64,000 nt of DNA from an uncultured Pelagibacteraceae bacterium (GTDB lineage: Bacteria > Pseudomonadota > Alphaproteobacteria > Pelagibacterales > Pelagibacteraceae): positions 34,058 through 98,057 of the forward strand of contig CACBTT010000001.1 in the NCBI GenBank assembly GCA_902542235.1. Reading direction: 5' to 3'. The stretch's first letter is position 1, and every line of letters starts with the position of its first letter. Below are positions 7,826 through 62,303 of this stretch, in pieces. The notes under the pieces are model-generated. The model was given only the letters and a program-made list of their open reading frames with translations, did not search any database and was not told the DNA's origin. The position numbers and the translations under genes are program-made.

Positions 7826-8982
7826 TAAAATAATTTACCTGAAATACTGTGTTCATAAAGTGCTTTCATGTCATCCTTACTCATTGTCCTTGGATTGGTA
7901 GACGTTGATGGATCTTCTAATGCCATAACTGATAACTGCTCTAAATTTATTTTATTTACATCAACAATCTCAGATAATTTATGTGGTATATTTAATTTTT
8001 TTCTTAGTTCTAAAATCCAGTGTAAAAAACTATCAAAACTTTTATCGAGTTCGAGATAATCACATATAGAAATTATCCTTTTTTCAATCATTTCTTTGTT
8101 AAAAGTTAATACATAAGGCATAAAGATTGCATTTGATAAACCGTGGTGAACATTAAATTGCGCATTAATAGGGTGGCTTAAAGAATGAATAGCACCAAGC
8201 CCTTTTTGAAAAGCGGTAGAGCCCATACTAGCTGAAGCTAATAATTCTGCTCTAGCATTTAAATCTTTACCGTTCTTAAATGCTTTAATTAATGAGTTTT
8301 TAATTAACTTCATTCCCTCAATCGCAATTCCATCAGCCATCGGGTGGAATCCTGGTGCACAAAAAGCTTCTAAATTGTGTGCCAAAGCATCCATACCTGT
8401 CGCAGCAGTCAATCTTGGAGAAAGATCTAAAGTTAAATTAGGATCTAAAATTACAATTGAAGGTAAAAATTTAGGGTGGAAAATAATTTTTTTTATACCT
8501 GTTTGTTTATTGATTATAGCTGATGCTCTTCCAGTTTCTGATCCTGTTCCTGCTGTAGTGGGCACAGCAATGATAGGTGCAATATTAGTTTCATCTGCTC
8601 TTTTCCAATAATCACCAATATCTTCAAAATCCCATATTGATCTAGACTGTCCTGACATAAAAGCAATAGCTTTACCTACATCAAGGCCGCTGCCACCACC
8701 AAATGCAATAACTCCATCACAACCTAATTTCTTAAACTGCCCTACTCCCTCTTCTACATTTTCACCTACAGGATTACCTGAAAAATTTGAAAAAACTTGA
8801 AGATGATTAAAGCTTTTTTTTAAATCTAAAATTATATCTTTAACCATTTTTAGATTAATTAAATCCTTATCTGTGACAAATAATGGTTTATCAATTTTAA
8901 GATTTTTACATGCTAGGCCTAAATGTTGAATTCTATTCTTTCCAACCCAAATTGTAGTAGGATAATTCCAATTAACTTTCAT
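7825..8982 (-). CDS. Iron-containing alcohol dehydrogenase
   Basis: 385 aa with FGGGSGLDVGKAIA, PTTAGTGSE, GLGAIHSLSHPINAQFNVHHGLSNA. Confidence 0.92.
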   Translation of the reverse strand: MKVNWNYPTTIWVGKNRIQHLGLACKNLKIDKPLFVTDKDLINLKMVKDIILDLKKSFNHLQVFSNFSGNPVGENVEEGVGQFKKLGCDGVIAFGGGSGLDVGKAIAFMSGQSRSIWDFEDIGDYWKRADETNIAPIIAVPTTAGTGSETGRASAIINKQTGIKKIIFHPKFLPSIVILDPNLTLDLSPRLTAATGMDALAHNLEAFCAPGFHPMADGIAIEGMKLIKNSLIKAFKNGKDLNARAELLASASMGSTAFQKGLGAIHSLSHPINAQFNVHHGLSNAIFMPYVLTFNKEMIEKRIISICDYLELDKSFDSFLHWILELRKKLNIPHKLSEIVDVNKINLEQLSVMALEDPSTSTNPRTMSKDDMKALYEHSISGKLF

Positions 8983-10240
8983 TTTTTTGATTTACTAGGT
9001 CTAAGTATAAAGCAGCACTCCAAGAAAAATTATTTGCGCCCATAACGGATCCATCTTTACAACTATAGTATTCGTGAAATCCTTTATTTTCAATTAAAGA
9101 TATTGTTTCATTTTTAATTTTAATTGAATACTCTTTATCTTTGTTTTTTATCCCTTGATAAATTAACCAGTTGCAATTTATCCATACAGGACCTCGCCAA
9201 TATCTTTTCTCTTCAAAACTTTCATGATCAGGTTTTATAGTAGAAAAAAAATATTTTTCGTTTAAATTGTGATTTTTTAGATTATTTATTATTTTATTAT
9301 TTAATTTATCATTTTTTAAATCCGCAATTAAAGTAAAGTAGTTTGTAATCGAAGGTATTAAAATATCTTTATTGGTATTTAAATCTCTAGAAATAAATTC
9401 ATCAATATCATGATTGTATAATTTAATTATTTCACTTTCACTTTGTGCAATATATAATTCAATTTCTTCAAAATTTAATTTAAATTTATTTAACAGCTCT
9501 ACTAAATCTTTATTTGCTTTTAAAAAAAGTGAATTAAATCCAACATCAATTACATTAAATATTGACAGTTCATATAGTTTATAGGGGTCGTAATTAATAT
9601 CTCTAAATTGATCTCTTATAGTAACATATCTGTCGTAATCTATTTTAAGAGGTCTTTCATCAGAATTCGAAACTTCTAAATCTCTTCTTTGATAGTTTAG
9701 CTCTTTATCTACTGAGATATTATTCATAGCCTCATCCCAAATTGGTGAATTATCATAACCACTTTCCCATGGATGCAAAATAGACACTAATCCAGTTTTA
9801 TTTGGATCTCTGAATTTTATAAACCATTCATGATATTTTTTTATTTTTTTAAGAATTTTTAAAATTCTAGAAACTTGATCATCATTAAATTTATTATTTT
9901 CTATAATTTTCTTTAACACAATAGCTAGAACAGGTGGCTGAGTAATTCCTGATGATGGTATGTTTTTTCCACATTTCCAAGTAGTATGATTAGGAAAATA
10001 AGATGTATCCTTATCATGAAATAGAATATGAGGTACCATTCCATCATCCCATTGACCTTCAAGTAATGTTTCTATTTCCTCTAAAGCATAATCTAAATTA
10101 AAATAAGAGTACCCAAGAGCAATGAAAGCTGAGTCCCAATTCCATTGAGCTGGATAAAGTTTATTATTAGTAGGAAGAGTGTAACCATTTTTTCTGTTAC
10201 TCAGCAATATTTTTTTTGCCTCTTCTATTCTCTTTGACAT
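8972..10240 (-). CDS. GH63/trehalase-like glycosidase, possibly glucosylglycerate or mannosylglycerate hydrolase
   Basis: 422 aa with (alpha/alpha)6-type motifs: LYPAQWNWDSAFIALGY, GQWDDGMVPHILFH, HPWESGYDNSPIWDEA, RYWRGPVWINCNWLIYQG. Confidence 0.75.
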   Translation of the reverse strand: MSKRIEEAKKILLSNRKNGYTLPTNNKLYPAQWNWDSAFIALGYSYFNLDYALEEIETLLEGQWDDGMVPHILFHDKDTSYFPNHTTWKCGKNIPSSGITQPPVLAIVLKKIIENNKFNDDQVSRILKILKKIKKYHEWFIKFRDPNKTGLVSILHPWESGYDNSPIWDEAMNNISVDKELNYQRRDLEVSNSDERPLKIDYDRYVTIRDQFRDINYDPYKLYELSIFNVIDVGFNSLFLKANKDLVELLNKFKLNFEEIELYIAQSESEIIKLYNHDIDEFISRDLNTNKDILIPSITNYFTLIADLKNDKLNNKIINNLKNHNLNEKYFFSTIKPDHESFEEKRYWRGPVWINCNWLIYQGIKNKDKEYSIKIKNETISLIENKGFHEYYSCKDGSVMGANNFSWSAALYLDLVNQKNES

Positions 10241-20431: not shown

Positions 20432-22771
20432 ATGTTAGAAGAAAATTTAAGAATAAATGAACCTGGTTTAAATGTTTTGCCACCTGGGGTTGAAAGATAT
20501 GTAATTAATGGCGGTGGACTTACAGGAGTTCAGATTTTTCCAGATGATGAAATAGAAATTATTAATAATGAAGGAAATCAAATTTGCGAAATAGTTGTTT
20601 TTAATTCTGATGGAAATTCAGATCCATCAATTTTAAATTTAAAATCTTCTAAATCAGAAAATGATATAATCAAAATTTTAAATAGAAATGAAGAAAGTTC
20701 AAAAATTGCATTGCGTCAATTAGAAAAAAGAAATCTTAAAATTGCAAAGTCTAAATCTTCAATCCTTTTTGACAAAGACACTCCACCAGGAGAAAAAATT
20801 AAAATAAGTTCCAAAGATAAGTGTTATTGCATTTTTTCTGCACCTGGTAATGATATGTTGGTTCATGAACAAAATCCTCCTACAGAATTAACTTTATTTA
20901 TTAAAAGAAATAATATTATTGACTATAAAGAACATAGAATAATTCCAGATCCAATTTTTGATCCTTTAGACGAAAAAAATATTGCAAAACAATCAGCGAT
21001 TTCTTTTGAAGTTAAAGAAGGAGATTATATTCAAATAATTTGTCCAACTGGTAGACAATGTTCAGATTTTGTTGCTTTTGATACAGCTAAATTAGGTAAA
21101 GGTGTAGAGAAAGGTTTAGATTGGCAAACAACCAGGACCTTTATGGGTAATACTTTTCCAGGACCGGGATTGTATTCAAAATTTTATGATACAGACCATG
21201 AACCTTTAGTAGAAGTAATAAGAGATACTGTTGGTAGACATGACACTTTTAATCTTGCTTGTACATCGAAGTATTACGAAGATGCTGGTTATTTTGGGCA
21301 TCCAAATTGCTCAGATAACTTAAGTGGTGCTATGGAAAATTTTGGGGTTAATAGACAAAAAGGATGGCACGCTATAAATTTATTTTTTAATACTTCAGCA
21401 GGAGGTTTAAATACCGTACTTTCTGATGAGTCATTTGCTAGACCTGGAGATTATGTAATATTAAGAGCTTTAAAAGATTTAACCTGCGGAACATCAGCCT
21501 GTCCAAGTGATATAGATCCATGTAATTCATGGAACCCTACAGATATTTTTGTTAGAACTTATGAAAAAAAAAGAGAATTTACAAAATCTTTTGCATTTAG
21601 AATGAAACCAGACTCAGAATTAAAACTAACAAAAAATACAGGATTTCATGAAAGAACTTCTAAATTAACAAGAAATTTTGTTGATGCTAGAGGATATTGG
21701 CTACCAAATGATTACACTAAACACGGAGTAATAAATGAATATACAGCGTGTAGAGAAAAAGCAGTTCTAATTGATTTATCTTCATTAAGAAAATTTGAAA
21801 TATTGGGTCCTGATGCAGAGGAATTGATGGACTATACTTTAACTAGAAATGTTAAAAAATTGTCGGTTGGACAGATTGTTTATTCTTCGATGTGTTATGA
21901 AAATGGTTCTATGTTTGATGATGGAACATTGTTAAAAATGAGTGATCATGGATTTAGATGGGTATGTGGTGATGAATACGCAGGTGAATGGTTAAAAGAA
22001 CAAGCAAAAAAGAAAAAATTTAATGTTTTAGTTAAAAACTCTACTGATCAAATAAATAATATTTCTCTACAAGGACCAAACAGTAGGAAAATTTTAGAAA
22101 AGTTTATTTTTACTCCACCAACACAACCTTCTATTTCAGAATTACAATGGTTTAGGTTTACAATCTGTAGAGTAAGAGAACTTAGTGGAATTCCATTGAT
22201 GGTTTCTAGAACTGGATACACAGGCGAGTTAGGATATGAAATATGGTGTCACCCTTCAGATGCACCAGCGGTTTGGGATGTGCTCATAGAAGCTGGAAAA
22301 GATGAAGGATTAATACCTGCTGGTTTTGGAGCATTAGATTTATTAAGAATTGAAGCTGGTCTAATATTGTTTGGTAATGAATTTGACGGCCAAGTTGACC
22401 CGTTCGAAGCAGGTGTTGGATTTACGGTTCCTTTAAAAACCAAAACAGCAGATTTCATTGGTAAAGAAGCATTAATAAAGAGAAAAGAAAATCCGCAAAA
22501 GAAATTAGTTGGATTAGAACTTGTAGGCAAAGAAAAAGCTAATCACGGTGATTGTGTTCACATTGGAAGATCCCAAGTTGGCGTAGTTACAAGCGGATGT
22601 CTATCTCCTACTTTGAATAAAAATATTGCTTTGTGCAGAATTGATGTAGGTCATTCAGAAATAGGTATGAATGTTGAAGTCGGTAAAATTGATGGACATC
22701 AAAAAAGAATACCTGCTAAAGTTGTTGGTTTCCCGCATTACGATCCTCAAAAAACACGTGTAAAATCTTAA
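20432..22771 (+). CDS. DUF1989 (urea carboxylase-associated) domain fused to GcvT/aminomethyltransferase domain
   Basis: 779 aa. DUF1989-like motifs GRQCSDFVAFD, GRHDTFNLACTSKYYE, HPNCSDNL, CGTSACPSDIDPCNSWNPTDI. Then GcvT-like motifs LQGPNSRKILEKF, SRTGYTGELGYEIWC, GALDLLRIEAGL. Confidence 0.85.
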   Translation: MLEENLRINEPGLNVLPPGVERYVINGGGLTGVQIFPDDEIEIINNEGNQICEIVVFNSDGNSDPSILNLKSSKSENDIIKILNRNEESSKIALRQLEKRNLKIAKSKSSILFDKDTPPGEKIKISSKDKCYCIFSAPGNDMLVHEQNPPTELTLFIKRNNIIDYKEHRIIPDPIFDPLDEKNIAKQSAISFEVKEGDYIQIICPTGRQCSDFVAFDTAKLGKGVEKGLDWQTTRTFMGNTFPGPGLYSKFYDTDHEPLVEVIRDTVGRHDTFNLACTSKYYEDAGYFGHPNCSDNLSGAMENFGVNRQKGWHAINLFFNTSAGGLNTVLSDESFARPGDYVILRALKDLTCGTSACPSDIDPCNSWNPTDIFVRTYEKKREFTKSFAFRMKPDSELKLTKNTGFHERTSKLTRNFVDARGYWLPNDYTKHGVINEYTACREKAVLIDLSSLRKFEILGPDAEELMDYTLTRNVKKLSVGQIVYSSMCYENGSMFDDGTLLKMSDHGFRWVCGDEYAGEWLKEQAKKKKFNVLVKNSTDQINNISLQGPNSRKILEKFIFTPPTQPSISELQWFRFTICRVRELSGIPLMVSRTGYTGELGYEIWCHPSDAPAVWDVLIEAGKDEGLIPAGFGALDLLRIEAGLILFGNEFDGQVDPFEAGVGFTVPLKTKTADFIGKEALIKRKENPQKKLVGLELVGKEKANHGDCVHIGRSQVGVVTSGCLSPTLNKNIALCRIDVGHSEIGMNVEVGKIDGHQKRIPAKVVGFPHYDPQKTRVKS

Positions 22772-50413: not shown

Positions 50414-52441
50414 CTACTGCTGTAAACTTGCTAATTCTTCAATATTAATATGACATCTAATAGCGTTACCATTTTCACCTATTTGCCATGGTGGAACCTC
50501 TGAATTACAAATATCACCTATTTTCCTCGGGCATCTTCCTTGAAAAGAACAGCCTTTTTCAGGGGGTTTTTCCTCTACAATATCCTCAGCTACTAATTTT
50601 GGTTTTATATCTGGATCTGGTTCCAAAACAGCACCTAATAATACTTCAGTATAAGGATGTGATGGAAATTTGTAAACATTTTGAGAAGGACCAATTTCAC
50701 ATAACCTTCCTTGATATAAAACTGCAACTCTATCACTAATTGCTCTAACAACAGCCAGATCATGAGAAACAAATACGTAGGTTGTTCCTAGATCTTCTTT
50801 TAATTGTTGTAATAAGTTTAAAACAGCTGCTTGAACCGAAACATCTAAAGCTGATGTAACCTCATCACACAAAATTATATCTGGCTTAGCAGCAAATGCT
50901 CTTGCAACTGCAACTCTTTGTTTCTCACCACCTGATAATTGTCTGGGATATCTTGACATATAAAATTCTCCTAACCTTACTTTTTTTAGTAGATCGATTA
51001 TATTTTTTTTTAATTCTTTTCCTAATAAATTAAAATACAACTTTAGAGGTTGAGAAAGTATCTGCTCAACTGTGTGGTTTGGATTGAGTGACTCGTCTGG
51101 ATTTTGAAATATAAGTTGTATTGCTCGCAGATCATTTGGATTTCTCATTTTTAAATCAGAAGATAAAATACGATCATTTTCAAATTTAATTTGACCATCT
51201 TTTGTTTCGAGTAAGCCTGCAATTGATTTTAAGATAGTAGACTTGCCACTTCCAGACTCACCAACCAGGGCAATAGTCTCTCCTTTTTTTATATCTATAC
51301 TTATATCTTTAACTGTTGGGTTTTGATCAGAAATTTTATTTAATAATTGATCAAAAAATTTCTGCTTTGCATAACTAATTGAAACATCCTTTAATTTTAA
51401 AACTTCATTTGCTTCACTATTATTTGATTTTTTTGTTATTGAAGTTTGTAAATTATTATTTTGGTTTATTAATTCCTTATAATTAAAACATCGGACATTG
51501 GTATCTAATTCTTTAATATGTTCCAGATCTGGTGAATTTTTTTTACAATTATCAGTTGCTAAGTTACATCTATCATAAAAACTGCAACCTTCATTTATGC
51601 TTCCAGGCTGAGGTTGGCTTCCTGGCATAGAAGCTGGAAGTCCAGCTAGTGAAAGTTTAGGTATCGATTTTAACAATCCATAAGTATAAGGATGAATAGG
51701 TTCTTTTAATATTTTTCTTGCTGGTCCTTCTAAAACAATTTCTCCCGCATACATTACAACTATTCTATCACTGACTTGCGCTATGGCTCCAAGGTCATGA
51801 CTAACATAGATCATAGATGTTCCAGTATCTTTTGCTATAAATCTCAGTAGTTCTAATACATGCGCTTGTGTTGTAACGTCTAATCCAGTAGTTGGCTCAT
51901 CTAATAAAAGTAAATCTGGTTTGCCAGCCAATGCCATTGCAACAGCCACTCTTTGTTGTTGTCCTCCAGAAAGCTCGTGTGGATAACGAAATGCCATAGT
52001 TTCTGGTGAAGGAAGTCTTACTTTATTTAATAACTCTGAAATTTTTTTATCTCTCTCTGATTTGTTTAGATCTGTATGTAATCTTAATGCTTCATCAATT
52101 TGATATCCAATTTTTAAATTCGGTGTTAATGCTTGTCCTGCATTTTGAGGTATCATGGCTATTTTTCTACCTCTAATTTTTTCTAGCTGTCTACTGCTCA
52201 TCTTCAATAAATCCTCAGATTTAAAGAGGCATTCACCCTTAAGAGGAAATAAACCTTGTTTTATATAGCCCATCATAGCAAGTGCTAATGTGCTTTTTCC
52301 AGAACCCGACTCACCTACGATCCCTACAGTCTCTCCTTTTTTTATATTGGTTGAAACATTTCTTAGTATTGAAATTTGTTTGCCCTTCTGACTATTAAAT
52401 CCAATTGATAAATTTTTAACACTTTCAATTATTTCACTCAT
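50414..52441 (-). CDS. Dipeptide/oligopeptide-type ABC transporter, fused dual ATP-binding protein
   Basis: 675 aa with two ABC domains (GESGSGKSTLALAMMG ... LSGGQQQRVAVAMAL; GESGSGKSTILKSIAG ... LSGGEKQRVAVARAF). Confidence 0.95.
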   Translation of the reverse strand: MSEIIESVKNLSIGFNSQKGKQISILRNVSTNIKKGETVGIVGESGSGKSTLALAMMGYIKQGLFPLKGECLFKSEDLLKMSSRQLEKIRGRKIAMIPQNAGQALTPNLKIGYQIDEALRLHTDLNKSERDKKISELLNKVRLPSPETMAFRYPHELSGGQQQRVAVAMALAGKPDLLLLDEPTTGLDVTTQAHVLELLRFIAKDTGTSMIYVSHDLGAIAQVSDRIVVMYAGEIVLEGPARKILKEPIHPYTYGLLKSIPKLSLAGLPASMPGSQPQPGSINEGCSFYDRCNLATDNCKKNSPDLEHIKELDTNVRCFNYKELINQNNNLQTSITKKSNNSEANEVLKLKDVSISYAKQKFFDQLLNKISDQNPTVKDISIDIKKGETIALVGESGSGKSTILKSIAGLLETKDGQIKFENDRILSSDLKMRNPNDLRAIQLIFQNPDESLNPNHTVEQILSQPLKLYFNLLGKELKKNIIDLLKKVRLGEFYMSRYPRQLSGGEKQRVAVARAFAAKPDIILCDEVTSALDVSVQAAVLNLLQQLKEDLGTTYVFVSHDLAVVRAISDRVAVLYQGRLCEIGPSQNVYKFPSHPYTEVLLGAVLEPDPDIKPKLVAEDIVEEKPPEKGCSFQGRCPRKIGDICNSEVPPWQIGENGNAIRCHINIEELASLQQ

Positions 52442-53335
52442 TTAAACAGGTGCCTTTGTTGAACGATCAATTCCTAAAGCTTTTGCAAATGCATCAGCAG
52501 TTAAATTTATTCCAATAATTAACGAACTTAATCCTACTATTGGAGCAATTACAGACCAGTATGCAAACGACATCAATCCTCTAGCATTAGATATCATCAA
52601 ACCCCAATCAGGTGTTGGAGGACTTACACCAAAACCTAAGAATGACAATGAGCTAAATCCTAATAACATCCAAGACCATCTCATTGCTCCTTCTACTAAT
52701 ATAGCATCTCTAACATTTGGAATAATTTCATTCCAAATAATAGACATGTTGCTATGACCTCTAGCTCTGGCTGAAACTATAAAGTCTTTAGCAATAACAT
52801 CATGAGTAGCAGCTCTAGCAACTCTTACTATTCCTTTACCATAAAAAAAACCTAGTGCAGGAATTAAAACCTCCGTTGATGTTCCTAAAAGAGAAACAAT
52901 TAATAACATTGCAAGTATCCAAGGTATAGAAAGAAACGCATCAACAACTCTCATTACAACATCGTCAATTTTACCTCCAACTAAACCACAAAAAATTCCA
53001 AGTAAACCTCCCCACAGAAGAGCTATAAGTGATCCAAAAAAAGTTACCGTAAGAGCTGTTCGTCCTCCAAGTATTGTTCTTGTAAAGACATCTCTACCCA
53101 GGCTATCTGTTCCAAACCAATGTTCAGCTGAAGGTGCAAGTAACATGGTATTTGGGCTAATTGCTTTATAATCGTATGGTGCAATGTAAGGGCTTATTAT
53201 TGCTAAGACTACATGAAATAATACAATTGTAAGTCCAATCAATCCTGAAGGCTTGGAGGCCATAGTTTTTAAAATCTCAAAAGCCTTTTCTAGCTTGTTT
53301 TTTTGTTTATCCTCTGTAATTAAATTACTCTCCAT
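52442..53335 (-). CDS. Dipeptide/oligopeptide-type ABC permease (DppC-like)
   Basis: 297 aa with HWFGTDSLGRDVFTRTILGGRTAL, ARARGHSNMSIIWNEIIPNV. Confidence 0.94.
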   Translation of the reverse strand: MESNLITEDKQKNKLEKAFEILKTMASKPSGLIGLTIVLFHVVLAIISPYIAPYDYKAISPNTMLLAPSAEHWFGTDSLGRDVFTRTILGGRTALTVTFFGSLIALLWGGLLGIFCGLVGGKIDDVVMRVVDAFLSIPWILAMLLIVSLLGTSTEVLIPALGFFYGKGIVRVARAATHDVIAKDFIVSARARGHSNMSIIWNEIIPNVRDAILVEGAMRWSWMLLGFSSLSFLGFGVSPPTPDWGLMISNARGLMSFAYWSVIAPIVGLSSLIIGINLTADAFAKALGIDRSTKAPV

Positions 53336-53336
53336 T

Positions 53337-54293
53337 TTATTTTCTTATCTGTAAACTTTTTAATCTTGGGTTAAGCATGAGCGTCATTAAATCTGCTATT
53401 AAATTTATTCCCACATAGATTGATGCCAATATTATTGCTAATGCTTGAACAACAGGTAAATCTCTATTTGATATAGACTCAATTACCAGTCTACCTAAAC
53501 CAGGATAATTAAAAACAACTTCTGTAACAACTACACCACCTAGTAACCAGGCGATTGTTAATGCTACTACATTTATTGCTGGTAATAATGCATTTGGCAA
53601 TACATGTCTAAATACCATTTTCCAATAAGGAACACCTTTTAAAATTGCCATTTGCACATAATCACTTGCCATAACTTGAATTACACTTGAGCGGACCATT
53701 CTTGCCATGTGTGCAGTCATAATCATTGAAATAGCTACAACTGGTAAAATTATATTTGAGAGTAATTCATAAAAAGTTGCATCTGATGGTATAATCACAA
53801 TTCCTGGTAGCCAACCAAGCCAAATTGCAACAATTAAAATAAGCAAAGTAGCACTAATAAACTCAGGAATAGTCATAGAAAAAATTGTGATAGTTGAGAT
53901 CATAATATCAGGAAGCTTATCTCTCCAAAGAGCAGTTATTATTCCTAATACGATTGCTAAAGGAATTCCTATAAGTATTGAAACAGAGGCTAAAACTAAA
54001 GAGTTTTTAACTCTTGGGCCTAATACTTCATTAATTGGCATTTCTCCACTCAAAGAGTAACCAAAATCACCTCTTATAACATTTGATGCCCATTCCAAGT
54101 ATCTTTCATAAGCAGGAACATCAAGACCAAGTCTTTTTATGCAAGCATCAAGAGCTGCTCCATAAGCTTCTCTTTCTAAATATGTTGTGCATGCATCCCC
54201 AGGTAAAACTTCAACTCCTACAAATGTAATCAATGAGACTATTAATAAAGTGATAAGCCCTAGTCCAATTCTTTTTAAAATTAATAAAAGCAT
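53337..54293 (-). CDS. Dipeptide/oligopeptide-type ABC permease (DppB-like)
   Basis: 318 aa with ILKRIGLGLITLLIVSLITF, AILKGVPYWKMVFRHVLPNALLPAINVVAL. Confidence 0.94.
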   Translation of the reverse strand: MLLLILKRIGLGLITLLIVSLITFVGVEVLPGDACTTYLEREAYGAALDACIKRLGLDVPAYERYLEWASNVIRGDFGYSLSGEMPINEVLGPRVKNSLVLASVSILIGIPLAIVLGIITALWRDKLPDIMISTITIFSMTIPEFISATLLILIVAIWLGWLPGIVIIPSDATFYELLSNIILPVVAISMIMTAHMARMVRSSVIQVMASDYVQMAILKGVPYWKMVFRHVLPNALLPAINVVALTIAWLLGGVVVTEVVFNYPGLGRLVIESISNRDLPVVQALAIILASIYVGINLIADLMTLMLNPRLKSLQIRK

Positions 54294-54340
54294 AAGATTA
54301 ACTAGAACTTTTTAACAAAAATAAATTAAATAGAAATAAA

Positions 54341-54368
54341 ATAAAGGCCGCTAGTGTGCGGCCTTTAT
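54341..54368 (-). terminator. Perfect hairpin between SBP gene and dppB-like gene
   Basis: ATAAAGGCCGC (54341-54351) pairs perfectly with GCGGCCTTTAT (54358-54368), 11 bp, 6-nt loop. T-rich on the minus-strand downstream side. Confidence 0.85.
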
Positions 54369-54378
54369 CTAAATACTT

Positions 54379-55866
54379 TTAGTCAACTTTAACTTTATGC
54401 CACTGTATAGAAAAGTGGTCTACAGCATCAAGGTTTTTAACTTTTGATGAAGTAACTACAAGTCTAGATACGTGGTATGGGATCATTGTTCCACTTTGTT
54501 CCCATAAAGTCATTTGAGCATTTTGATATGCTTTTTTTCTTTTATTGAAATCCAACTCACTTCTAGCGTCAGCTAAATTTTTATCAAAGTCAGCATTTTT
54601 GAAATAAGACTCATTCCATTTTGCTCCACTATGATATGCTTCATGCAAGATTGTGTCTGCTGGTCTTTGGTTCCAACGTGTCATTGAAACTGGCTTTTTC
54701 ATCCAAACTTCATTCCAATAACCTTTAGATGGTACCATCTCAATATTAACTTTAATTCCTGCTTTTGCAACTTGTTGCTGAACAACTTCTGCAATTGTAG
54801 GCCAAGTTGGTTCTAAAGTTGCTGGGTAAACAGTCAATTCAATTCCATTTGGAAATCCTGCTTCTCTTAGTAAATTTTTTGCTTTACTAATATTTTGAGG
54901 ACAATCCATTTGTAAACGATATTGATCAGATGGCATTACGGGAGTATCACAAGATACAGTTGCTGCTCCACCCATCACTAGGTCTACAAGTTCTTGTCTA
55001 TCAACTGCTAACCTAAAAGCTTTTCTCACTTTAGGATTATCAAATGGAGCAGTATCAGTTCTCATAACCACACCTCTCCAGTTTCCAGTTGGAATTACAG
55101 TTGTTGTAAATTTAGAATTACTGTCAAATATCTTTTTTTGATTGAAAGGTACATATCTATTCATATCAATTTGACCAGTTAAAAGAGCTTGAATTCTTGC
55201 TTGAGCATCTGGGATCGCAATGACATGAACTTCTGCAACTCCTGGTGCACCTTCCCAATATTCTGGGTTAGCTTTAAGAATTGTAGTTCCTTCTGGATCA
55301 AATTTATCAACCATGAATGGTCCAGTACCAACTCCAGTTTGTCCTATAGTATCTCCTGATCCTTCAGGTATCATTCTTAATCTGTAGTCAGTTAATAATA
55401 ACGGAAAGTCAGCAAATGAAGTTGATAACTTCATTTTAACTGTATGCTGATCAACTACTTCAATATCTTCAACTACATTTAAACTTTTTCTAACTGGAGA
55501 TCCGATATCAGGATCTTTAGCTCTCATCAGAGAATATTTAACATCTGGAGCATCAAAAGCTGATCCATCATGGAAATATATTCCTTTTCTTAAATTAAAT
55601 GTCCATTCAGTTGCATCAGAATTAGCACTCCAATCTGTTGACAGTGAAGGTGATGGAACACCGTTCATATCAGGTCTTACTAATCTATTTTGTGTTTTGA
55701 TGACAACTTGAAATAAACGCCCTTTTGTTATGGCATCTAAGTTAGTATCTTTTCCAAATCCAAGATCATGTGATACTTTAAATACTCCACTTGATGCATT
55801 GGCAATAGAAAAAGATAATATCAGTGACATAAAAGTCGCTGAAAAAACTTTAAGTATGTATTTCAT
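54379..55866 (-). CDS. Dipeptide/oligopeptide-type ABC substrate-binding protein
   Basis: 495 aa, signal peptide, SBP family 5 sequence (TEWTFNLRKGIYFHDGSAFDAPDVKYSLMRAKDP). Confidence 0.94.
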   Translation of the reverse strand: MKYILKVFSATFMSLILSFSIANASSGVFKVSHDLGFGKDTNLDAITKGRLFQVVIKTQNRLVRPDMNGVPSPSLSTDWSANSDATEWTFNLRKGIYFHDGSAFDAPDVKYSLMRAKDPDIGSPVRKSLNVVEDIEVVDQHTVKMKLSTSFADFPLLLTDYRLRMIPEGSGDTIGQTGVGTGPFMVDKFDPEGTTILKANPEYWEGAPGVAEVHVIAIPDAQARIQALLTGQIDMNRYVPFNQKKIFDSNSKFTTTVIPTGNWRGVVMRTDTAPFDNPKVRKAFRLAVDRQELVDLVMGGAATVSCDTPVMPSDQYRLQMDCPQNISKAKNLLREAGFPNGIELTVYPATLEPTWPTIAEVVQQQVAKAGIKVNIEMVPSKGYWNEVWMKKPVSMTRWNQRPADTILHEAYHSGAKWNESYFKNADFDKNLADARSELDFNKRKKAYQNAQMTLWEQSGTMIPYHVSRLVVTSSKVKNLDAVDHFSIQWHKVKVD

Positions 55867-56007
55867 AAGTTCCCTCTTTTTCTTTCGTTGTTTAAATAAT
55901 CAAAAAGATAACAATTCCAGAACTAGATAACAACATGCAAAATGTAGTGATTCATCTACTAATTGAATAGATATTTTAATTAATATACACTTTTTCTAAA
56001 TTTATAA

Positions 56008-57231
56008 ATGCAAAACGAATTAAACAAAGTCAGATTTTCTGTAAAACCTTTAAAATCCAATGATAATAAAGTTGTTGAGCTTGCACGGACTGTCGGGATA
56101 CATCCTCTAGCGTATCAAGAACTTCCCTATGATCCTGAGTATTCATTTTATGCAGGAAGATTAAATCCAGAAGTACTTTCAAACGCTACTGCTGATGAAA
56201 TGTATTGGAAAGTAAGACAAGAGGTAATTTTTCGTCATACTGGTGAACATCCATATGAAATATCTGGTCCTGATGCAGAAAAACTTTTACAAAAAATATT
56301 CACAAGAGATATCTCAAATGTAAAAGTAGGAAGATGCTCATACCAATTTGCTTGTTACAATGATGGAGGCATGCTGACAGATGGAGTTTTGCTAAAACTT
56401 GAAGAAAATAAATTTTGGTTTGTTCAAGCTGATGGTGATCTTTTTTCATGGTATAAAGCTCACACTGATAATCTTAATGTAAAAATTTCTGACCCAGACG
56501 TTTGGGTAAGTCAAATTCAGGGACCAAAATCTATGGATCTTTTAAAAGTTTTAAGTAAAGAAACTTTTCCTGATACTTGGAAATATTTTGATTGGAAAGA
56601 AATTACTATACTTAATGAAAAAGTGATCATAAGTAGATCAGGATTTAGTAATGAACTTGGTTGGGAAATTTATTTTAGAAAAAATAATAATACTGAAAAA
56701 ATTGGGGATTATATTCTTGAAGAAGGAAAAAAAATGGGAATGATACTCACAGGTACCCCTGGTTTTAGATGTAAAAGAATAGAATCTGGATTATTATCAG
56801 CTGGGCAAGACTTTAATCATAAAACAAATCCATATGATGTTGGTTTAGGTAAATATGTCGATTTAAAAAAAAATTATTTTATTGGAAAAGCGGCATTGAT
56901 GACTGCTGATAAAGAAAAAAGATGTTGGGGAATACGGGTAGAAAATGGAACAGGTTTAAAAGGAACTTACATAAAATTCAATAATGAAATAATTGGAAAA
57001 ATTACATCAAGTACTTGGTCGCCTTTTCAAAAATGTGGTGTTGGAATAGTTTTAATGAATTCTACAAAACATAAACCTGGATTAATAGTGGATGTTAATT
57101 GCAGTGATAATAAAATTCATAAAGGTGAAATATGCACCTTGCCAATGTATGACTTTAAAAATGAAATTGTAAGAGGTTTAAAAATAGATATTCCAACAGG
57201 TCCTTCTCCGTGGTCAGGAATAAAAAAATAA
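56008..57231 (+). CDS. Aminomethyltransferase/GcvT family protein (DmdA-like demethylase candidate)
   Basis: 407 aa with EISGPDAEKLLQKIFTRDISNVKVGRCSYQFACYNDGGMLTDGVLLKL, ISRSGFSNELGWEIYF, RCKRIESGLLSAGQDF. Confidence 0.85.
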   Translation: MQNELNKVRFSVKPLKSNDNKVVELARTVGIHPLAYQELPYDPEYSFYAGRLNPEVLSNATADEMYWKVRQEVIFRHTGEHPYEISGPDAEKLLQKIFTRDISNVKVGRCSYQFACYNDGGMLTDGVLLKLEENKFWFVQADGDLFSWYKAHTDNLNVKISDPDVWVSQIQGPKSMDLLKVLSKETFPDTWKYFDWKEITILNEKVIISRSGFSNELGWEIYFRKNNNTEKIGDYILEEGKKMGMILTGTPGFRCKRIESGLLSAGQDFNHKTNPYDVGLGKYVDLKKNYFIGKAALMTADKEKRCWGIRVENGTGLKGTYIKFNNEIIGKITSSTWSPFQKCGVGIVLMNSTKHKPGLIVDVNCSDNKIHKGEICTLPMYDFKNEIVRGLKIDIPTGPSPWSGIKK

Positions 57232-57905
57232 TAATAGCAATTGGTGGTGGTGGATTTACACATTCTTCTGATGAAGACTTGGATGAATATGTTATAAATC
57301 AAGTTAATAAATCAAATATCAATATCGGTTTTTTACCTACGGCTAGCAATGATAATCAAGAAAAGACTGATCTTTTTTATAAAAGATTTAAATCACAAAA
57401 ATTTAAATTATCTCATTTTAATCTCTGTTCAAGTGTGGAAGGTTTTAATGAATGGATGTTAAATAAAGATATAATTTATGTAGGGGGTGGCAATACATCT
57501 GAAATGATTAATATTTGGAAGAGACATGATCTTATCAAAGTATTTAAAGATGCATATGAAAAAGGAATAATTCTGAGTGGAATAAGTGCAGGTGCTGTCT
57601 GTTGGTTTGATTGGATATTGTCAGACTCAGTCAATGAAGAGCTAAGTCCGTTAAAAGGAATAAATTTTTTAGATGGGAGTTGCACACCGCATTCTTCTGA
57701 TAATAATCGACTTCGACAATTTATTTCAGAAATTCAAGATGGAAATTTGCCAGATGGAATAGCTATTGATGATGGTGTAGCTGTGCTTTTTATTGACGGA
57801 GTTCCTTCAGAGGTTTATTCTTCAAGAATTAATCATGACGCTTATTATGTGACTAGACATGATAAGATAAGTTTAAAAACATATATAAAAAATTTAAATG
57901 GATAA
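57210..57905 (+). CDS. Peptidase S51 family (dipeptidase E / cyanophycinase-like)
   Basis: 231 aa with IIAIGGGGFTHSSDEDLDEYV, YVGGGNTSEMINIW, nucleophile region LSGISAGAVCWFDW. GTG start overlaps the upstream gene by 22 nt. Confidence 0.85.
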   Translation: MVRNKKIIIAIGGGGFTHSSDEDLDEYVINQVNKSNINIGFLPTASNDNQEKTDLFYKRFKSQKFKLSHFNLCSSVEGFNEWMLNKDIIYVGGGNTSEMINIWKRHDLIKVFKDAYEKGIILSGISAGAVCWFDWILSDSVNEELSPLKGINFLDGSCTPHSSDNNRLRQFISEIQDGNLPDGIAIDDGVAVLFIDGVPSEVYSSRINHDAYYVTRHDKISLKTYIKNLNG

Positions 57906-59058
57906 CATTAAAGCGAGTAATAAAATTTTTAGCATTGAAGACGCAAAAAAACTATCGAAGAAAAGATTACCAAAGCTAGTTTATGATTTTATTGATGGCG
58001 CATCAGGAGATGAAAAATTATCAGAAATTAATAGTCTTGCTTTAGATCAAATACGTCTTGAGCCAAGAGTTCTAAGGAATGTAGAGGAAAGAAAACTAAA
58101 AAAAAATATTCTTGGATTTAACTATGACTATCCTTTCGGATTTGCCCCAATGGGTATGACAAATCTTTCATGGCCAGGTGCAGATTCTATGTTGGCAAAA
58201 GAGAGTGCAAGAAATAACATACCAACCTGTGTATCGATGGCGTCAACAACAACCTTAGAAAAAATGTATGAGCTTTCTGAAGGTCATTCATGGCTTCAAC
58301 TTTATATTTTTCAAGATGAAGATTTTGTAATGGAATTACTAGATAGAGCAGAAAAAACTGGCTATGAAGTTGCTATACTTACTGTTGATGTTCCAGTTTT
58401 ATCAAGAAGAACTAGAGATGATAAAAATGGATTTTCATATCCATTTAAAATAGGACCTAAACAATTTTTTGATTTTGCAACTCATCCTATTTGGTCAATA
58501 TCTACATTGCTTAGTGGTATACCAAAGCCAATGAATTATGAGACTTCAAAAAGTGGTAAAGGTATTTTTAAAAGAAAAGAAAGTAGAGGAAAAACAGATT
58601 GGGAAACGTTAAAAAGAGTAAGAAATAAATGGAAAGGCAAATTAATTGTAAAAGGTGTTATGTCATCAGATGATGCAGTTAAAATTAAAGAAATGGGCGC
58701 TGATGCTATCCAAGTTTCAAATCATGGAGGTAGACAATTAGATAGTGCCTCAGCAGCAATAAATATTTTACCTTTTATTAGGGAAGCAGTAGGGAATAAT
58801 TTTCCAATTATATTTGATAGTGGAATAAGAAGTGGGAGCGATATTGTAAGATCATTAGCTTTAGGAGCAGATTTTTCAATGATTGGAAGGCCTGTAATGT
58901 ATGCAATGGGAGCTGATGGAGCTAGCGGGCTAAGAAGAATTGTAGATATAATTAAAGAAGAAACTAGCACAACGCTAGGTTTGGTTGGATTAAATGATAT
59001 TAATGAAGTTTCTTCTGATATAATTGAACAGAAACTATTTATGAATACAACTTACTAA
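57898..59058 (+). CDS. FMN-dependent alpha-hydroxyacid dehydrogenase/oxidase (LldD-like)
   Basis: 386 aa with YDFIDGASGDEKLSEIN, QVSNHGGRQLDSA, FDSGIRSGSDIVRSLALGADFSMIGRPVMY. Confidence 0.92.
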   Translation: MDNIKASNKIFSIEDAKKLSKKRLPKLVYDFIDGASGDEKLSEINSLALDQIRLEPRVLRNVEERKLKKNILGFNYDYPFGFAPMGMTNLSWPGADSMLAKESARNNIPTCVSMASTTTLEKMYELSEGHSWLQLYIFQDEDFVMELLDRAEKTGYEVAILTVDVPVLSRRTRDDKNGFSYPFKIGPKQFFDFATHPIWSISTLLSGIPKPMNYETSKSGKGIFKRKESRGKTDWETLKRVRNKWKGKLIVKGVMSSDDAVKIKEMGADAIQVSNHGGRQLDSASAAINILPFIREAVGNNFPIIFDSGIRSGSDIVRSLALGADFSMIGRPVMYAMGADGASGLRRIVDIIKEETSTTLGLVGLNDINEVSSDIIEQKLFMNTTY

Positions 59059-59059
59059 T

Positions 59060-60799
59060 ATGGAAAAAAAAATAAGAGGTGGAGCATTAATTGCAAGAGC
59101 ATTAAAAGATAAAGGTATTAATAAAGTTTTTACTCTATCTGGTGGATTTTGTAATCCTGCAATTGAAGGTTTCATGGAGTGTCAAATTGATGTAGTTAAT
59201 TGTCCTCATGAACAAATAGCTGGACACTTAGCAGATGGACACACAAGAATTACAAGAAAGCCATCTGTATGCTTGGTAGGGCCAGAAGGTTTTACGAATG
59301 CAGTACCATCAATGATGGAAGCATGGGGAGAAAGAACGCCAATAATTTATATAACCGGATCAAGTAGTTTAAAAAGACAAGGGTCAGGTGGATTTAAAGA
59401 AATTGATGATGTTTCAATAGCTGCTCCTCTTACAAAATATAGTGCAAGCATTACAGATGGAACAAGAATTAGAGAATTTGTTGATAAAGCTTACAGAATT
59501 GCAACGAATGGGTATCCTGGAGCTGTTCATCTAAGTTTACCAGTAGATATAATGTTTTCTTCATTTGAAGAAAATGTTGGACTGGAAGAAAGACCATTTT
59601 CACATAAAGCAAAGCCAGTTGCTAAGGCATGGCCAGATCCAAATGCTCTATCAAAAATACTTGAGTTAGCATGTAATGCAAAAAAACCTGTCATAATTGG
59701 AGGACATGGTGTTTGGTGGTCAAACTCAGAAAAAAATTTAGAAAATGCGGGTGAAAGTTTAAATATTCCAGTTTTTAATGTGCCTTACCATCAAAAACTT
59801 TTAGGAGAAGAGGCAAATGCATATATGGGTTTAGCAGATATTCACCAATATCCACCATCGGAATTTGCATTACAAAATTCAGACTTAGTTTTGATGATTG
59901 GTGCAAGATTAGATAACCAAATGAATTTTGGTAACCCTCCTTTCATTCCAAAAACAACAACTTTAGTTTGTATTAACGGTTCCCATGAAGAAATTGAGTT
60001 TAATAGAGCAGCTGATCATAACCTTTTATGTGATCCAGGAGTATTTTTGGATACTCTATGTAATTTAAAGAAAAATAATAAATGGAATTTAGGAAATAGT
60101 TGGTTTCAAGATAATAAAAATAAAAAGAAAGATTGGGTAGATAAATCTTTAAATGAATTAAAGATTGAAGCTGATAAAGCAAAAAAAAATGGTGGAAAAA
60201 TTCATCCACTGCAATTAGCGTTGGACGTTCAAGACGTAATGGATGAGAAAGATTGGCTAGTAATTGATGGAGGAAATACTCATTTCTGGTCAGAGATAGC
60301 AATAAATTTAGCAGGAGCTCAAGGAAAAAAATTAGGTGGAATTTTACATCCAGGCACATTTAGTATGCTGGGTGTTGGTGTGTCATTTGCATTATCTGCA
60401 AAAAACAATAACCCTAAATCGAATGTAATTTTAATTAGTGGAGATGGTGCATTTTTATCTGGAGGCATGTCTATAGAAACTGCATTTTTTGAAAAGAAAC
60501 CAATCGTTGTTGTTATTGACAATAATGGTGGCTTAGCATCAATTGGGCAACAACAAGAAAGATTATTTGAAAGCGGAAAAAGAGTTGCAACAGACTTTAG
60601 AGATATACCTTTCCACAGTATATTTGAGGGCTTTGGGGGTCATGGAGAATTAGTAACGAAAAGAGAAGAATTGGGTCCAGCACTAAAAAGAGCTATTGCA
60701 AGTGGTAGAACTGCTTGCGTAAATGTAAAAGCTAAACCTGTATTAAGTCCAATTGTTGCTGCTGTGGCAAGCAAGAGAGAGAAATCATCAATAGAGTAA
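59060..60799 (+). CDS. Thiamine diphosphate-dependent enzyme (acetolactate synthase-like)
   Basis: 579 aa with catalytic Glu region NCPHEQIAGHLADGHTR and ThDP motif SGDGAFLSGGMSIETAFFEKKPIVVVIDNNGG. Confidence 0.9.
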   Translation: MEKKIRGGALIARALKDKGINKVFTLSGGFCNPAIEGFMECQIDVVNCPHEQIAGHLADGHTRITRKPSVCLVGPEGFTNAVPSMMEAWGERTPIIYITGSSSLKRQGSGGFKEIDDVSIAAPLTKYSASITDGTRIREFVDKAYRIATNGYPGAVHLSLPVDIMFSSFEENVGLEERPFSHKAKPVAKAWPDPNALSKILELACNAKKPVIIGGHGVWWSNSEKNLENAGESLNIPVFNVPYHQKLLGEEANAYMGLADIHQYPPSEFALQNSDLVLMIGARLDNQMNFGNPPFIPKTTTLVCINGSHEEIEFNRAADHNLLCDPGVFLDTLCNLKKNNKWNLGNSWFQDNKNKKKDWVDKSLNELKIEADKAKKNGGKIHPLQLALDVQDVMDEKDWLVIDGGNTHFWSEIAINLAGAQGKKLGGILHPGTFSMLGVGVSFALSAKNNNPKSNVILISGDGAFLSGGMSIETAFFEKKPIVVVIDNNGGLASIGQQQERLFESGKRVATDFRDIPFHSIFEGFGGHGELVTKREELGPALKRAIASGRTACVNVKAKPVLSPIVAAVASKREKSSIE

Positions 60800-60800
60800 T

Positions 60801-61136
60801 ATGGCAAAATTTAGCTCACATTTATTGAATGGTTCTGATGGGACTCATGCAAGTAATGTCAAAGTAAAGATTTATCAAATACAATCCTCAAAATTAAAAA
60901 AGCTTTTTTTGAATACAAAGACTGATGGAAATGGTAGGATTAATCACCAATTCAATCTTAGCAAAAAAGATTGTAAATGGGATTATGAAATGATTTGTGA
61001 TATTAAAAGATACTTTAAAAAGAAAAAAATTGTGGGTGAAATAGTCATAAAATTTAAAATGATCGATAATAAAAAAAATTATCATTTGCCAATAATAATT
61101 TCTCCTAACAGCTATACAGTATGGTGGTCTAAATAA
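60801..61136 (+). CDS. Transthyretin-like / 5-hydroxyisourate hydrolase-like protein
   Basis: 111 aa with FSSHLLNGSDGTHASNVKVKIYQI, TKTDGNGR and YHLPIIISPNSYTVWWSK, HIUase-like positions. C-terminal YRGS is absent. Confidence 0.75.
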   Translation: MAKFSSHLLNGSDGTHASNVKVKIYQIQSSKLKKLFLNTKTDGNGRINHQFNLSKKDCKWDYEMICDIKRYFKKKKIVGEIVIKFKMIDNKKNYHLPIIISPNSYTVWWSK

Positions 61137-61139
61137 TAT

Positions 61140-62303
61140 ATGACTTCGTTAATACAAAGTAAAATAAGTACTAAACTAAATATGTCTAGGAGAATAAGAA
61201 GAACTCCCTACACCAAGAAAGTTGAAGAGTGTGGTGTAACTGATTTTACCGTAGTAAATCATATGCTTTTACCAAAAAGATTTCAGAAATCTGTTGAGGA
61301 TGATTATTGGCATTTAAATGAACATGTTCAATTGTGGGATGTGTCTTGTCAAAGACAAGTTCAAATATCAGGTCCAGATGCTAGCTTATTAGTACAAAAA
61401 ATGACACCAAGATCATTAAAAAATATGGAAACAGGAAAATGTTTTTATATTCCTATGATCGATGAAAATGCTGGAATGATAAATGATCCAGTGTTGTTAA
61501 AATTAGATGATGATATGTTTTGGATTTCAATAGCAGACTCTGATGTATTGCTTTGGGCAAAAGGTATTGCTGTTGGTTTAAATCTAAATGTGAGCATAAC
61601 AGAACCAGATGTATATCCACTTGCAGTACAAGGTCCAAAGTCTGAAGATTTGATGGCATCAATATTCGGAGAAGATATTAGAAAATTAAAATTTTTTAAT
61701 TTTAGAATATTTGATTTCTTGGGAACTAAACAAGTTATTGCAAGATCTGGGTATAGCAAACAAGATGGATTTGAGATTTATTTTAAATGCTTTGAAGATT
61801 ACTTCGACAAAAATGAAATGGGAGAAAAAATTTGGGATATAATATGGAAAGCGGGGAAAGAATTTAATATTGCTCCAGGATGCCCAAATTTAATTGACAG
61901 AATAGAAGCGGGATTAATGTCTTATGGAAATGATTTCACGAAAGAAAATAATCCAATTGAGTGCAACTTAGAAAAATATTTTAATAATGAGAGCGATCAT
62001 GATTTCATTGGAAAAAATGCTTTAGAGAAGATTAAGAAACAAGGTGTAAAACAAAAATTAGGAGGAGTATTGTTTGATGGTGTGGATTGTCCTCCATGTT
62101 CAATTCCTTTTCCTATATATTCAAAAGATAAGAAATTAATTGGTAAAATTACCTCAGGGATTTATTCTCCAAAATTCAAAAAAAATATTGGTTTATCAAT
62201 GATTTTAAATGAATTTTGTAAAATAGGGTCAGAAGTTTTAGTGCACACTCCAGATAATAAATTAAGAAAAGGAATTGTGTCCTCTTTACCATTTTCAAAA
62301 TAA
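61140..62303 (+). CDS. Aminomethyltransferase family protein, DmdA-like (possible DMSP demethylase or paralogue)
   Basis: 387 aa with SRRIRRTPYTKKVEECGVTDFTVVNHMLLPKRF, HLNEHVQLWDVSCQRQVQISGPDA, ARSGYSKQDGFEIYF. Confidence 0.75.
   Translation: MTSLIQSKISTKLNMSRRIRRTPYTKKVEECGVTDFTVVNHMLLPKRFQKSVEDDYWHLNEHVQLWDVSCQRQVQISGPDASLLVQKMTPRSLKNMETGKCFYIPMIDENAGMINDPVLLKLDDDMFWISIADSDVLLWAKGIAVGLNLNVSITEPDVYPLAVQGPKSEDLMASIFGEDIRKLKFFNFRIFDFLGTKQVIARSGYSKQDGFEIYFKCFEDYFDKNEMGEKIWDIIWKAGKEFNIAPGCPNLIDRIEAGLMSYGNDFTKENNPIECNLEKYFNNESDHDFIGKNALEKIKKQGVKQKLGGVLFDGVDCPPCSIPFPIYSKDKKLIGKITSGIYSPKFKKNIGLSMILNEFCKIGSEVLVHTPDNKLRKGIVSSLPFSK

Follow-up and report, generated by a model that had tools for sequence, protein, structure and literature searches.

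DMSP demethylation proceeds through DmdA, DmdB, DmdC, and DmdD/AcuH, and DmdA is the marker by which the process is counted in the sea, with the marine group SAR11 and SAR116 among the main carriers. Other described systems that share parts with the locus studied here are MttB/MtgB-type betaine demethylation, 5-hydroxyisourate hydrolase (HIUase), and the degradation of DHPS and sulfolactate by HpsNOP, SlcD, and ComDE; an Xsc route with SlcD and ComDE has been described (PMC11382572). Our searches of the literature brought up no description of the module, and nothing of relevance on the gene set of this locus or on opine or N-methyl clusters of SAR11, in line with an earlier reading of the sequence (the original prediction), which likewise knew of no described pathway with these genes. 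We propose, with a probability of roughly 0.5, that the locus is a self-contained module for the catabolism of a methylated 2-hydroxyacid-type compound, either a quaternary ammonium or a sulfonium one, that is imported in a peptide-like or amide-linked form. In gene content the block resembles a full route from uptake to degradation, and it includes a separate branch of what databases tally as the DMSP demethylase of the marine sulfur cycle.

Organization of the Locus

The block lies in a window of 64,000 nucleotides from a SAR11 genome and comprises ten neighbouring genes, a four-gene divergent ABC transporter followed by six co-directional enzyme genes (56008–62303):

50414..52441, − strand: Opp/Dpp-type ABC transporter, fused ATP-binding subunits (DppDF), in the SAR11 block; 55–62% identity in other families
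52442..53335, − strand: ABC permease, DppC-type, kept in the block
53337..54293, − strand: ABC permease, DppB-type, kept in the block
54379..55866, − strand: solute-binding protein, SBP_bac_5 family; nearest solved structures YliB, HbpA, and AgaA
56008..57231, + strand: gene 1, GcvT-superfamily demethylase-like protein, in its own clade outside DmdA
57210..57905, + strand: gene 2, peptidase family S51 (peptidase E-like) hydrolase; GTG start; Pfam 122 bits
57898..59058, + strand: gene 3, FMN-dependent 2-hydroxyacid oxidase/dehydrogenase; FMN_dh 394.5 bits
59060..60799, + strand: gene 4, TPP-dependent C–C lyase/decarboxylase of the 2-hydroxyacyl-CoA lyase/oxalyl-CoA decarboxylase/acetolactate synthase superfamily
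60801..61136, + strand: gene 5, HIUase/transthyretin-like hydrolase; Pfam Transthyretin 68.5 bits
61140..62303, + strand: gene 6, DmdA-clade demethylase of a module-specific lineage; NCBIfam DmdA 527.4 bits, above the cut-off of 410

The six enzyme genes are joined by overlaps of 22 and 8 nt and then by gaps of 1, 1, and 3 nt, and their Pfam families are GCV_T (genes 1 and 6), Peptidase_S51, FMN_dh, three TPP_enzyme domains, and Transthyretin. The coordinates, strands, junctions, and family names of the original prediction, which described an essentially gap-free, co-directional, compact catabolic unit, are all borne out. Among 80 SAR11 loci, 66 hold all six genes complete, and in 66 of these 66 the order and strand are kept, even in a divergent SAR11 group in which protein identity across the six genes is 53–75%; the arrangement is therefore not due to chance. 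A scan for sigma-70 promoters gave no more matches than shuffled sequence.

The transporter at 50414–55866 belongs to the block, and orthologues of its solute-binding protein (55–59% identity) adjoin the core genes in other families. It had been overlooked in the original prediction.

Nor is the unit confined to one genome or to SAR11. The core of FMN oxidase, TPP enzyme, HIUase-like protein, and DmdA-like protein is also present in at least four further alphaproteobacterial families, one of which is probably the marine group SAR116, with gene 4 orthologues at 64–82% identity. Genes 4 and 5 stand side by side in all complete loci, and the pairing persists where the other genes are absent. A plasmid search for the whole block found no match to gene 5 and only diverged TPP relatives.

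Two GcvT-superfamily Proteins of Different Descent

The block had been predicted to hold two DmdA-like demethylases. Two divergent GcvT-superfamily proteins are indeed present, but they are not equivalent. On the NCBIfam DmdA equivalog NF009133 (cut-off 410 bits), gene 6 orthologues score 527–633 bits, level with canonical DmdA, and gene 1 scores 204.6 bits. In a tree with characterized and operon-anchored DmdAs as the reference set, gene 6 falls inside the DmdA clade (97/100), together with 3tfh and the SAR11 and Roseobacter DmdAs, beside which its lineage forms a sub-clade of its own (99/95); gene 1 belongs to a separate clade (100/100) outside DmdA. On sequence grounds we assign gene 6, which is 49% identical to P. 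ubique DmdA, to the DmdA clade proper and class gene 1 as not a DmdA.

As in DMSP demethylation, gene 6 would be expected to transfer a methyl group to tetrahydrofolate. Its partners are different, namely the FMN oxidase, the TPP enzyme, the HIUase-like protein, the S51 hydrolase, and the Dpp transporter; no dmdB-, dmdC-, or dmdD-type gene is found in the block. One could suppose that gene 6 is a further DMSP demethylase and that the other genes degrade an unrelated, co-regulated compound, as its DmdA-level scores would allow, and also its pocket motif, SGYSKQGGFEIY, which a Roseobacter DmdA from a dmdBCD-type operon shares unchanged. However, the genome that carries gene 6 already has a canonical dmdABC elsewhere, the gene 6 lineage never stands beside dmdBCD in the loci examined, and in family f110 this lineage occurs with gene 4 in 22 genomes and without it in 2, both being absent from 37. 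We consider this explanation unlikely. The Trp of SGWSKQGGYEVY has been reported to contact DMSP (W171; PMC7487153). The corresponding residue is Tyr in gene 6 and also in the Roseobacter DmdA within a dmd operon, and the substitution was for that reason dropped as proof of a non-DMSP substrate.

The assignment bears on field surveys, as the DmdA model names the gene 6 lineage dmdA and surveys of SAR11 and SAR116 may count it as such. A distinct DmdA lineage whose partners are an oxidase, a TPP enzyme, and a remodelled HIUase would imply that part of the dmdA counts measures another compound or a longer route, and if the module serves an undescribed pathway for a methylated 2-hydroxyacid, the gene 6 lineage would often not report on free DMSP at all.

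In other lineages the slot of gene 1 can be empty or hold an MttB-family methyltransferase, the latter in several loci of family f110, and the nearest solved relatives of this enzyme are trimethylamine and glycine betaine methyltransferases. Judged by gene order, gene 1 and MttB are interchangeable. The likeness to MttB/MtgB-type betaine demethylation is qualified by the GcvT-superfamily protein that SAR11 has in this role, and the methyl acceptor of the SAR11 module is probably tetrahydrofolate rather than a corrinoid protein. The Roseobacter relative of gene 1 adjoins a GbdR-like regulator and an aldehyde dehydrogenase resembling betaine aldehyde dehydrogenase.

An Oxidase Paired with a TPP-dependent Enzyme

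On plasmids, the nearest relatives of gene 3 (47% identity) adjoin the sulfopyruvate decarboxylase genes comDE in HpsNOP-type DHPS clusters, where the TPP-dependent decarboxylase precedes them. This neighbourhood provides a precedent for the sequence 2-hydroxyacid to 2-oxoacid to aldehyde, and it makes plausible the predicted role of genes 3 and 4, in which a 2-hydroxyacid would be oxidized to a 2-oxoacid and then decarboxylated. The shared logic has its limits: gene 4 is a single-chain enzyme of the HACL/ALS type, whereas ComDE has two subunits, and the block lacks HpsNOP and Xsc and has demethylases where that route has sulfonate cleavage. Ldh2-type 2-hydroxyacid dehydrogenases lie beside the core in two loci and near it in two others. 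Glyoxylate carboligase, which lacks the catalytic Glu, was ruled out as an identity for gene 4, in which this residue is kept.

Among solved structures gene 4 is closest to 2-hydroxyacyl-CoA lyases and oxalyl-CoA decarboxylases, and in SAR11 the block is flanked by FadB and a thiolase. Both facts would suit a CoA-dependent chain shortening in which gene 4 yields an aldehyde and formyl-CoA, gene 5 hydrolyzes formyl-CoA or a related compound, and FadB and the thiolase complete β-oxidation. The block, however, has no CoA ligase, and the same set of matches to gene 4 includes free-aldehyde enzymes, benzaldehyde lyase for one. The thiolase does lie just downstream, as had been noted, but it is a neighbour and not part of the unit: FadB is present genus-wide, the thiolase adjoins FadB in two loci from which the block is missing, and neither gene accompanies the core in other families. 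Such a CoA-dependent scheme is thus quite unlikely. FadB and the thiolase were ruled out as pathway members, and gonyol, a substrate that they would have fitted, was dropped with them.

In five other relatives FadB stands directly beside the Pot permease, at an empty site. Together with the FadB–thiolase sites that lack the block, these empty sites indicate that it was inserted or lost as one unit, and the best reading is that the module is horizontally mobile, gained or lost as a block.

The HIUase-like Protein and the S51 Hydrolase

Gene 5 has the HIUase fold (AF2 pLDDT 91; Foldseek to HIUases, TM 0.86), and the catalytic His/Arg/His of that enzyme is invariant as H7, R46, and H95. It differs from HIUase in its C-terminal motif, YRGS being lost in 26 of 26 orthologues in favour of WWS or a variant, in its score on the HIUase equivalog TIGR02962 (68.2 bits, below the cut-off of 87.45), and in its constant place beside a TPP enzyme.

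The retained fold and catalytic residues, and the occurrence of ureidoglycolate dehydrogenase among the Ldh2 matches, could be taken to mean that genes 5, 2, and 4 degrade an N-methylated ureide or hydantoin that genes 1 and 6 N-demethylate. The loss of YRGS and the missed cut-off argue against this, no other urate-pathway gene, such as one for OHCU decarboxylase or allantoinase, was recognized within the block, and we know of no DmdA-clade enzyme that acts on N-methyl heterocycles. A purine- or ureide-type catabolism is accordingly very improbable.

Gene 2 conserves a GxSAG serine and a PH histidine and scores below the equivalog cut-offs for peptidase E and cyanophycinase (27.8 and 29.3 bits versus 156 and 126.6). 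It is missing in loci that have a different Dpp transporter.

A Proposed Pathway

The integrity of the block, its families, the separate lineage of gene 6, the interchange of gene 1 with MttB, and the pairing of genes 4 and 5 come from sequence comparison; the order of reactions, the methyl acceptors, and the substrate are what we infer. In the proposed catabolism of a methylated 2-hydroxyacid-type compound, the Dpp-type transporter would import the compound and the S51 hydrolase would free its active part. Gene 1, or the MttB-family enzyme in other lineages, would remove one methyl group, gene 3 would oxidize the 2-hydroxyacid to the 2-oxoacid, gene 4 would decarboxylate or cleave the latter, and gene 5 would hydrolyze the product. 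Gene 6 would finally demethylate what is left, a DMSP-like product, with tetrahydrofolate as the methyl acceptor. Since the family of gene 4 includes CoA-dependent lyases, a 2-hydroxyacyl-CoA route is also possible. The SAR11 block contains no aldehyde dehydrogenase.

More tentatively, and with some doubt, the module could be a marine pathway that has yet to be described, with a widespread 2-hydroxyacid of the methylated sulfonium or betaine kind as its substrate; the missing DMSHB-to-DMSP route by way of a 2-hydroxyacid oxidase and a TPP decarboxylase would be one example. If one substrate is to be named, 4-dimethylsulfonio-2-hydroxybutyrate (DMSHB), free or as a conjugate, is the best candidate, though itself a long shot; its conversion by genes 3 and 4 would yield DMSP aldehyde, from which the DMSP acted on by gene 6 would arise. 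The decarboxylation step from DMSHB to DMSP is described as unresolved (PMC11306096), and genes 3–5 are a candidate for it. Ruegeria pomeroyi DSS-3 forms no DMSP from DMSHB (PMC11306096). A Dpp transporter and an S51 hydrolase are unexpected for a free small osmolyte, so that DMSHB would have to be conjugated to account for these two genes. It is also awkward for any one substrate that MttB points to a quaternary ammonium compound and DmdA to a sulfonium. Each of the six enzymes, like the solute-binding protein, is a single polypeptide, which makes the substrate directly testable by expression and assay. Two loci have a homocysteine S-methyltransferase-like gene ahead of gene 1.

Extent and conservation of the unit

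All six open reading frames of the block are present, with the coordinates and strand originally predicted, and lie beside a divergent transporter:

50414–55866 (− strand), Dpp-type ABC transporter, including a solute-binding protein gene (54379–55866)
56008–62303 (+ strand), genes 1–6, with the Pfam domains GCV_T+GCV_T_C, Peptidase_S51, FMN_dh, TPP_enzyme N/M/C, Transthyretin, and GCV_T+GCV_T_C in that order

Genes 1–6 are spaced by overlaps of 22 and 8 nt followed by gaps of 1, 1, and 3 nt. Scanning for sigma-70 promoters gave a signal no greater than in shuffled sequences, and no strong + strand terminator-like site was found within genes 1–6, so the probable co-transcription of the six genes rests on their spacing and conservation. 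On the − strand, a strong terminator-like hairpin (54339–54370; 13 pairs, 6 GC) is visible at the junction between the solute-binding protein gene and the permease genes.

The source genome is a 1.03-Mb assembly, 73% complete, of which the window is part of contig 1; single-cell genomes of Pelagibacteraceae (SAR11) are among its close relatives. In SAR11, genes 1–6 are complete in 66 of 80 loci, all 66 of which keep the order and strand, and a divergent group retains 53–75% identity across most of the six proteins. Genes 1 and 2 are separated in a subset of SAR11 loci (L075 at 8531–9259, L078, L080–L082, and L184) by a convergently oriented gene for a family-3 solute-binding-like protein (242 aa, PF00497).

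The thiolase, which the original prediction placed directly after the operon, proves with FadB to be a neighbor. Of 37 genomes searched in the genus, 32 carry FadB, whether or not the block is present; the thiolase was found in 14 of 61. At the block-free site of five loci (L199, L201, L203, L205, and L206), FadB adjoins the Pot permease with nothing between, and L207 and L208 have a FadB-thiolase-Pot arrangement without the block; the movable unit is therefore the Dpp-type transporter plus genes 1–6 (50414–62303).

Two distinct demethylase-like proteins

Both demethylases had been described as DmdA-like, which holds for gene 6, whereas gene 1 belongs elsewhere. Against the DmdA equivalog (cut-off 410), gene 6 scores 527 and an orthologue from family f110 scores 633, more than the 572 and 600 of canonical DmdAs. 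Its identity to P. ubique DmdA (3tfh) is 49% for gene 6 of this genome. In a maximum-likelihood tree, the gene-6 proteins (23, from five families) group as a single clade (99/95) within DmdA, with SAR11 and Roseobacter DmdA as neighbors. The source genome also encodes a canonical DmdA, 77% identical to that of P. ubique, which adjoins an acyl-CoA ligase and an acyl-CoA dehydrogenase. A Trp has been linked to DMSP binding in DmdA (PMC7487153). This position is Tyr in gene 6 and also in a Roseobacter DmdA encoded within a dmd operon, and the residue is thus uninformative on the substrate of gene 6. According to surveys of SAR116, most or part of the clade carries dmdA (PMC12262181; PMC8547437), and those surveys may include the gene-6 lineage.

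Gene 1 misses the DmdA cut-off by half and falls in a separate clade (100/100), joined by Roseobacter plasmid proteins of 54% identity. The latter adjoin an ALDH that resembles betaine aldehyde dehydrogenase and a regulator similar to GbdR (278 bits against a cut-off of 480). Outside SAR11, the slot of gene 1 is occupied in seven loci (L148, L150, L172, L174, L175, L179, and L181) by an MttB-family enzyme (PF06253, 386 bits), which is nearby in L176 and L180; the solved structures closest to this enzyme are those of trimethylamine and glycine betaine methyltransferases. Together, these neighbors and this replacement point to a quaternary ammonium methyl donor for this step. A homocysteine S-methyltransferase-like gene lies directly upstream of gene 1 in L056 (SAR11; 5769–6677) and in L147, from another family (5663–6586; PF02574).

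The oxidase, TPP enzyme, and HIUase-like protein

The closest plasmid relatives of gene 3 (45–47% identity, the next dropping to 38%) lie directly after the sulfopyruvate decarboxylase genes comDE in Roseobacter clusters that also hold a TRAP transporter, a histidinol-dehydrogenase-like gene, an SDR, and an ADH, matching the HpsNOP-SlcD-ComDE gene set of DHPS degradation (PMC11382572). The proposal that a 2-hydroxyacid is oxidized and then decarboxylated thus has a precedent, by analogy, in an FMN oxidase that would feed a TPP decarboxylase. Gene 4 itself may be CoA-dependent, since its nearest matches are 2-hydroxyacyl-CoA lyase/oxalyl-CoA decarboxylase and acetolactate synthase.

Gene 5 has a predicted HIUase fold (AF2 pLDDT 91; Foldseek TM 0.86 to 4q14) with an invariant His/Arg/His, but all 26 orthologues carry WWS, or a motif close to it, in place of the C-terminal YRGS. 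It is a predicted remodelled hydrolase tied to gene 4.

The block outside SAR11

Rather than being confined to this genome, as the original prediction had allowed, the block has gene 4 orthologues (64–82% identity) and a core in four further alphaproteobacterial families (that of genome G221, f110, f82, and f24). Gene content varies among these loci around the core of FMN enzyme, TPP enzyme, HIUase-like protein, and DmdA-like gene 6. The gene 4 orthologue occurs in 22 of 61 f110 genomes. With gene 6 counted at ≥54% identity, these 22 have both genes, 2 have gene 6 alone, and 37 have neither (Fisher 1e-14). Because the two genes are adjacent, this association does not count as independent support for a shared function. 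Three other genomes carry gene-6-like copies at 50–51%, under the threshold. Most f82 genomes have only genes 4 and 5, still adjacent. L167, L168, and L151 are examples of loci with this pair alone; the pair in L168 faces a convergent ABC transporter of the branched-chain type. Ldh2-type dehydrogenases adjoin the core in L149 and L150 and are near it in L168 and L169.

The S51 gene is missing from L147, L176, and L180. These are also the loci whose Dpp transporter is a different one (30–42%), so S51 may act jointly with the orthologous transporter to supply the substrate in one particular form.

A distant version in L177 (gene 4 at 38%) combines a GMC oxidase, a TPP enzyme, a DmdA-like protein, and an enoyl-CoA hydratase. 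In both L177 (1040–6931) and L178 (8931–15212), a distant TPP enzyme, 36–38% identical to gene 4, has a GMC oxidase and a small protein of 97 aa in its vicinity.

Proposed pathway

Each enzyme family is already known. In keeping with the original prediction, no description of the gene combination was found in the open-licence papers searched, which is weak evidence of absence. In the most economical reading, a peptide-like or amide-linked methylated compound would be imported and released by S51 (gene 2), a first demethylation by gene 1 or MttB would be followed by 2-hydroxyacid oxidation (gene 3), decarboxylation or cleavage (gene 4), and hydrolysis (gene 5), and gene 6 would carry out the last demethylation. 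The families are those found in the loci; from them we infer the reaction order, acceptors, and substrate. One candidate substrate is 4-dimethylsulfonio-2-hydroxybutyrate (DMSHB), since its conversion to DMSP has been described as unresolved, with R. pomeroyi lacking the step (PMC11306096). DMSHB alone does not account for the transporter and S51.

Other DmdA-related genes

In the 1.03 Mb of the source genome there are eleven GCV_T matches. A large protein encoded in the window (20432–22771) has a C-terminal GcvT domain that resembles TMAO demethylase. At L008 (546–2622; G000 contig 1), a short gene resembling methylene-THF reductase lies immediately upstream of a gene for a DmdA-like protein of 451 aa; the latter protein is widespread in SAR11, and its nearest relative in the tree is haloarchaeal. 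Another DmdA-related unit is found in Roseobacter (L123, 8992–13070; L124, 8971–13118), where a DmdA-like gene, OsmC, an enoyl-CoA hydratase, and an acyl-CoA synthetase lie behind an Lrp regulator; OsmC and enoyl-CoA hydratase also follow gene 6 in L147. On a Phaeobacter plasmid (L127, 3460–10143), a DmdA-like gene 38% identical to gene 6 is close to an arsenic cluster (arsB, arsJ).
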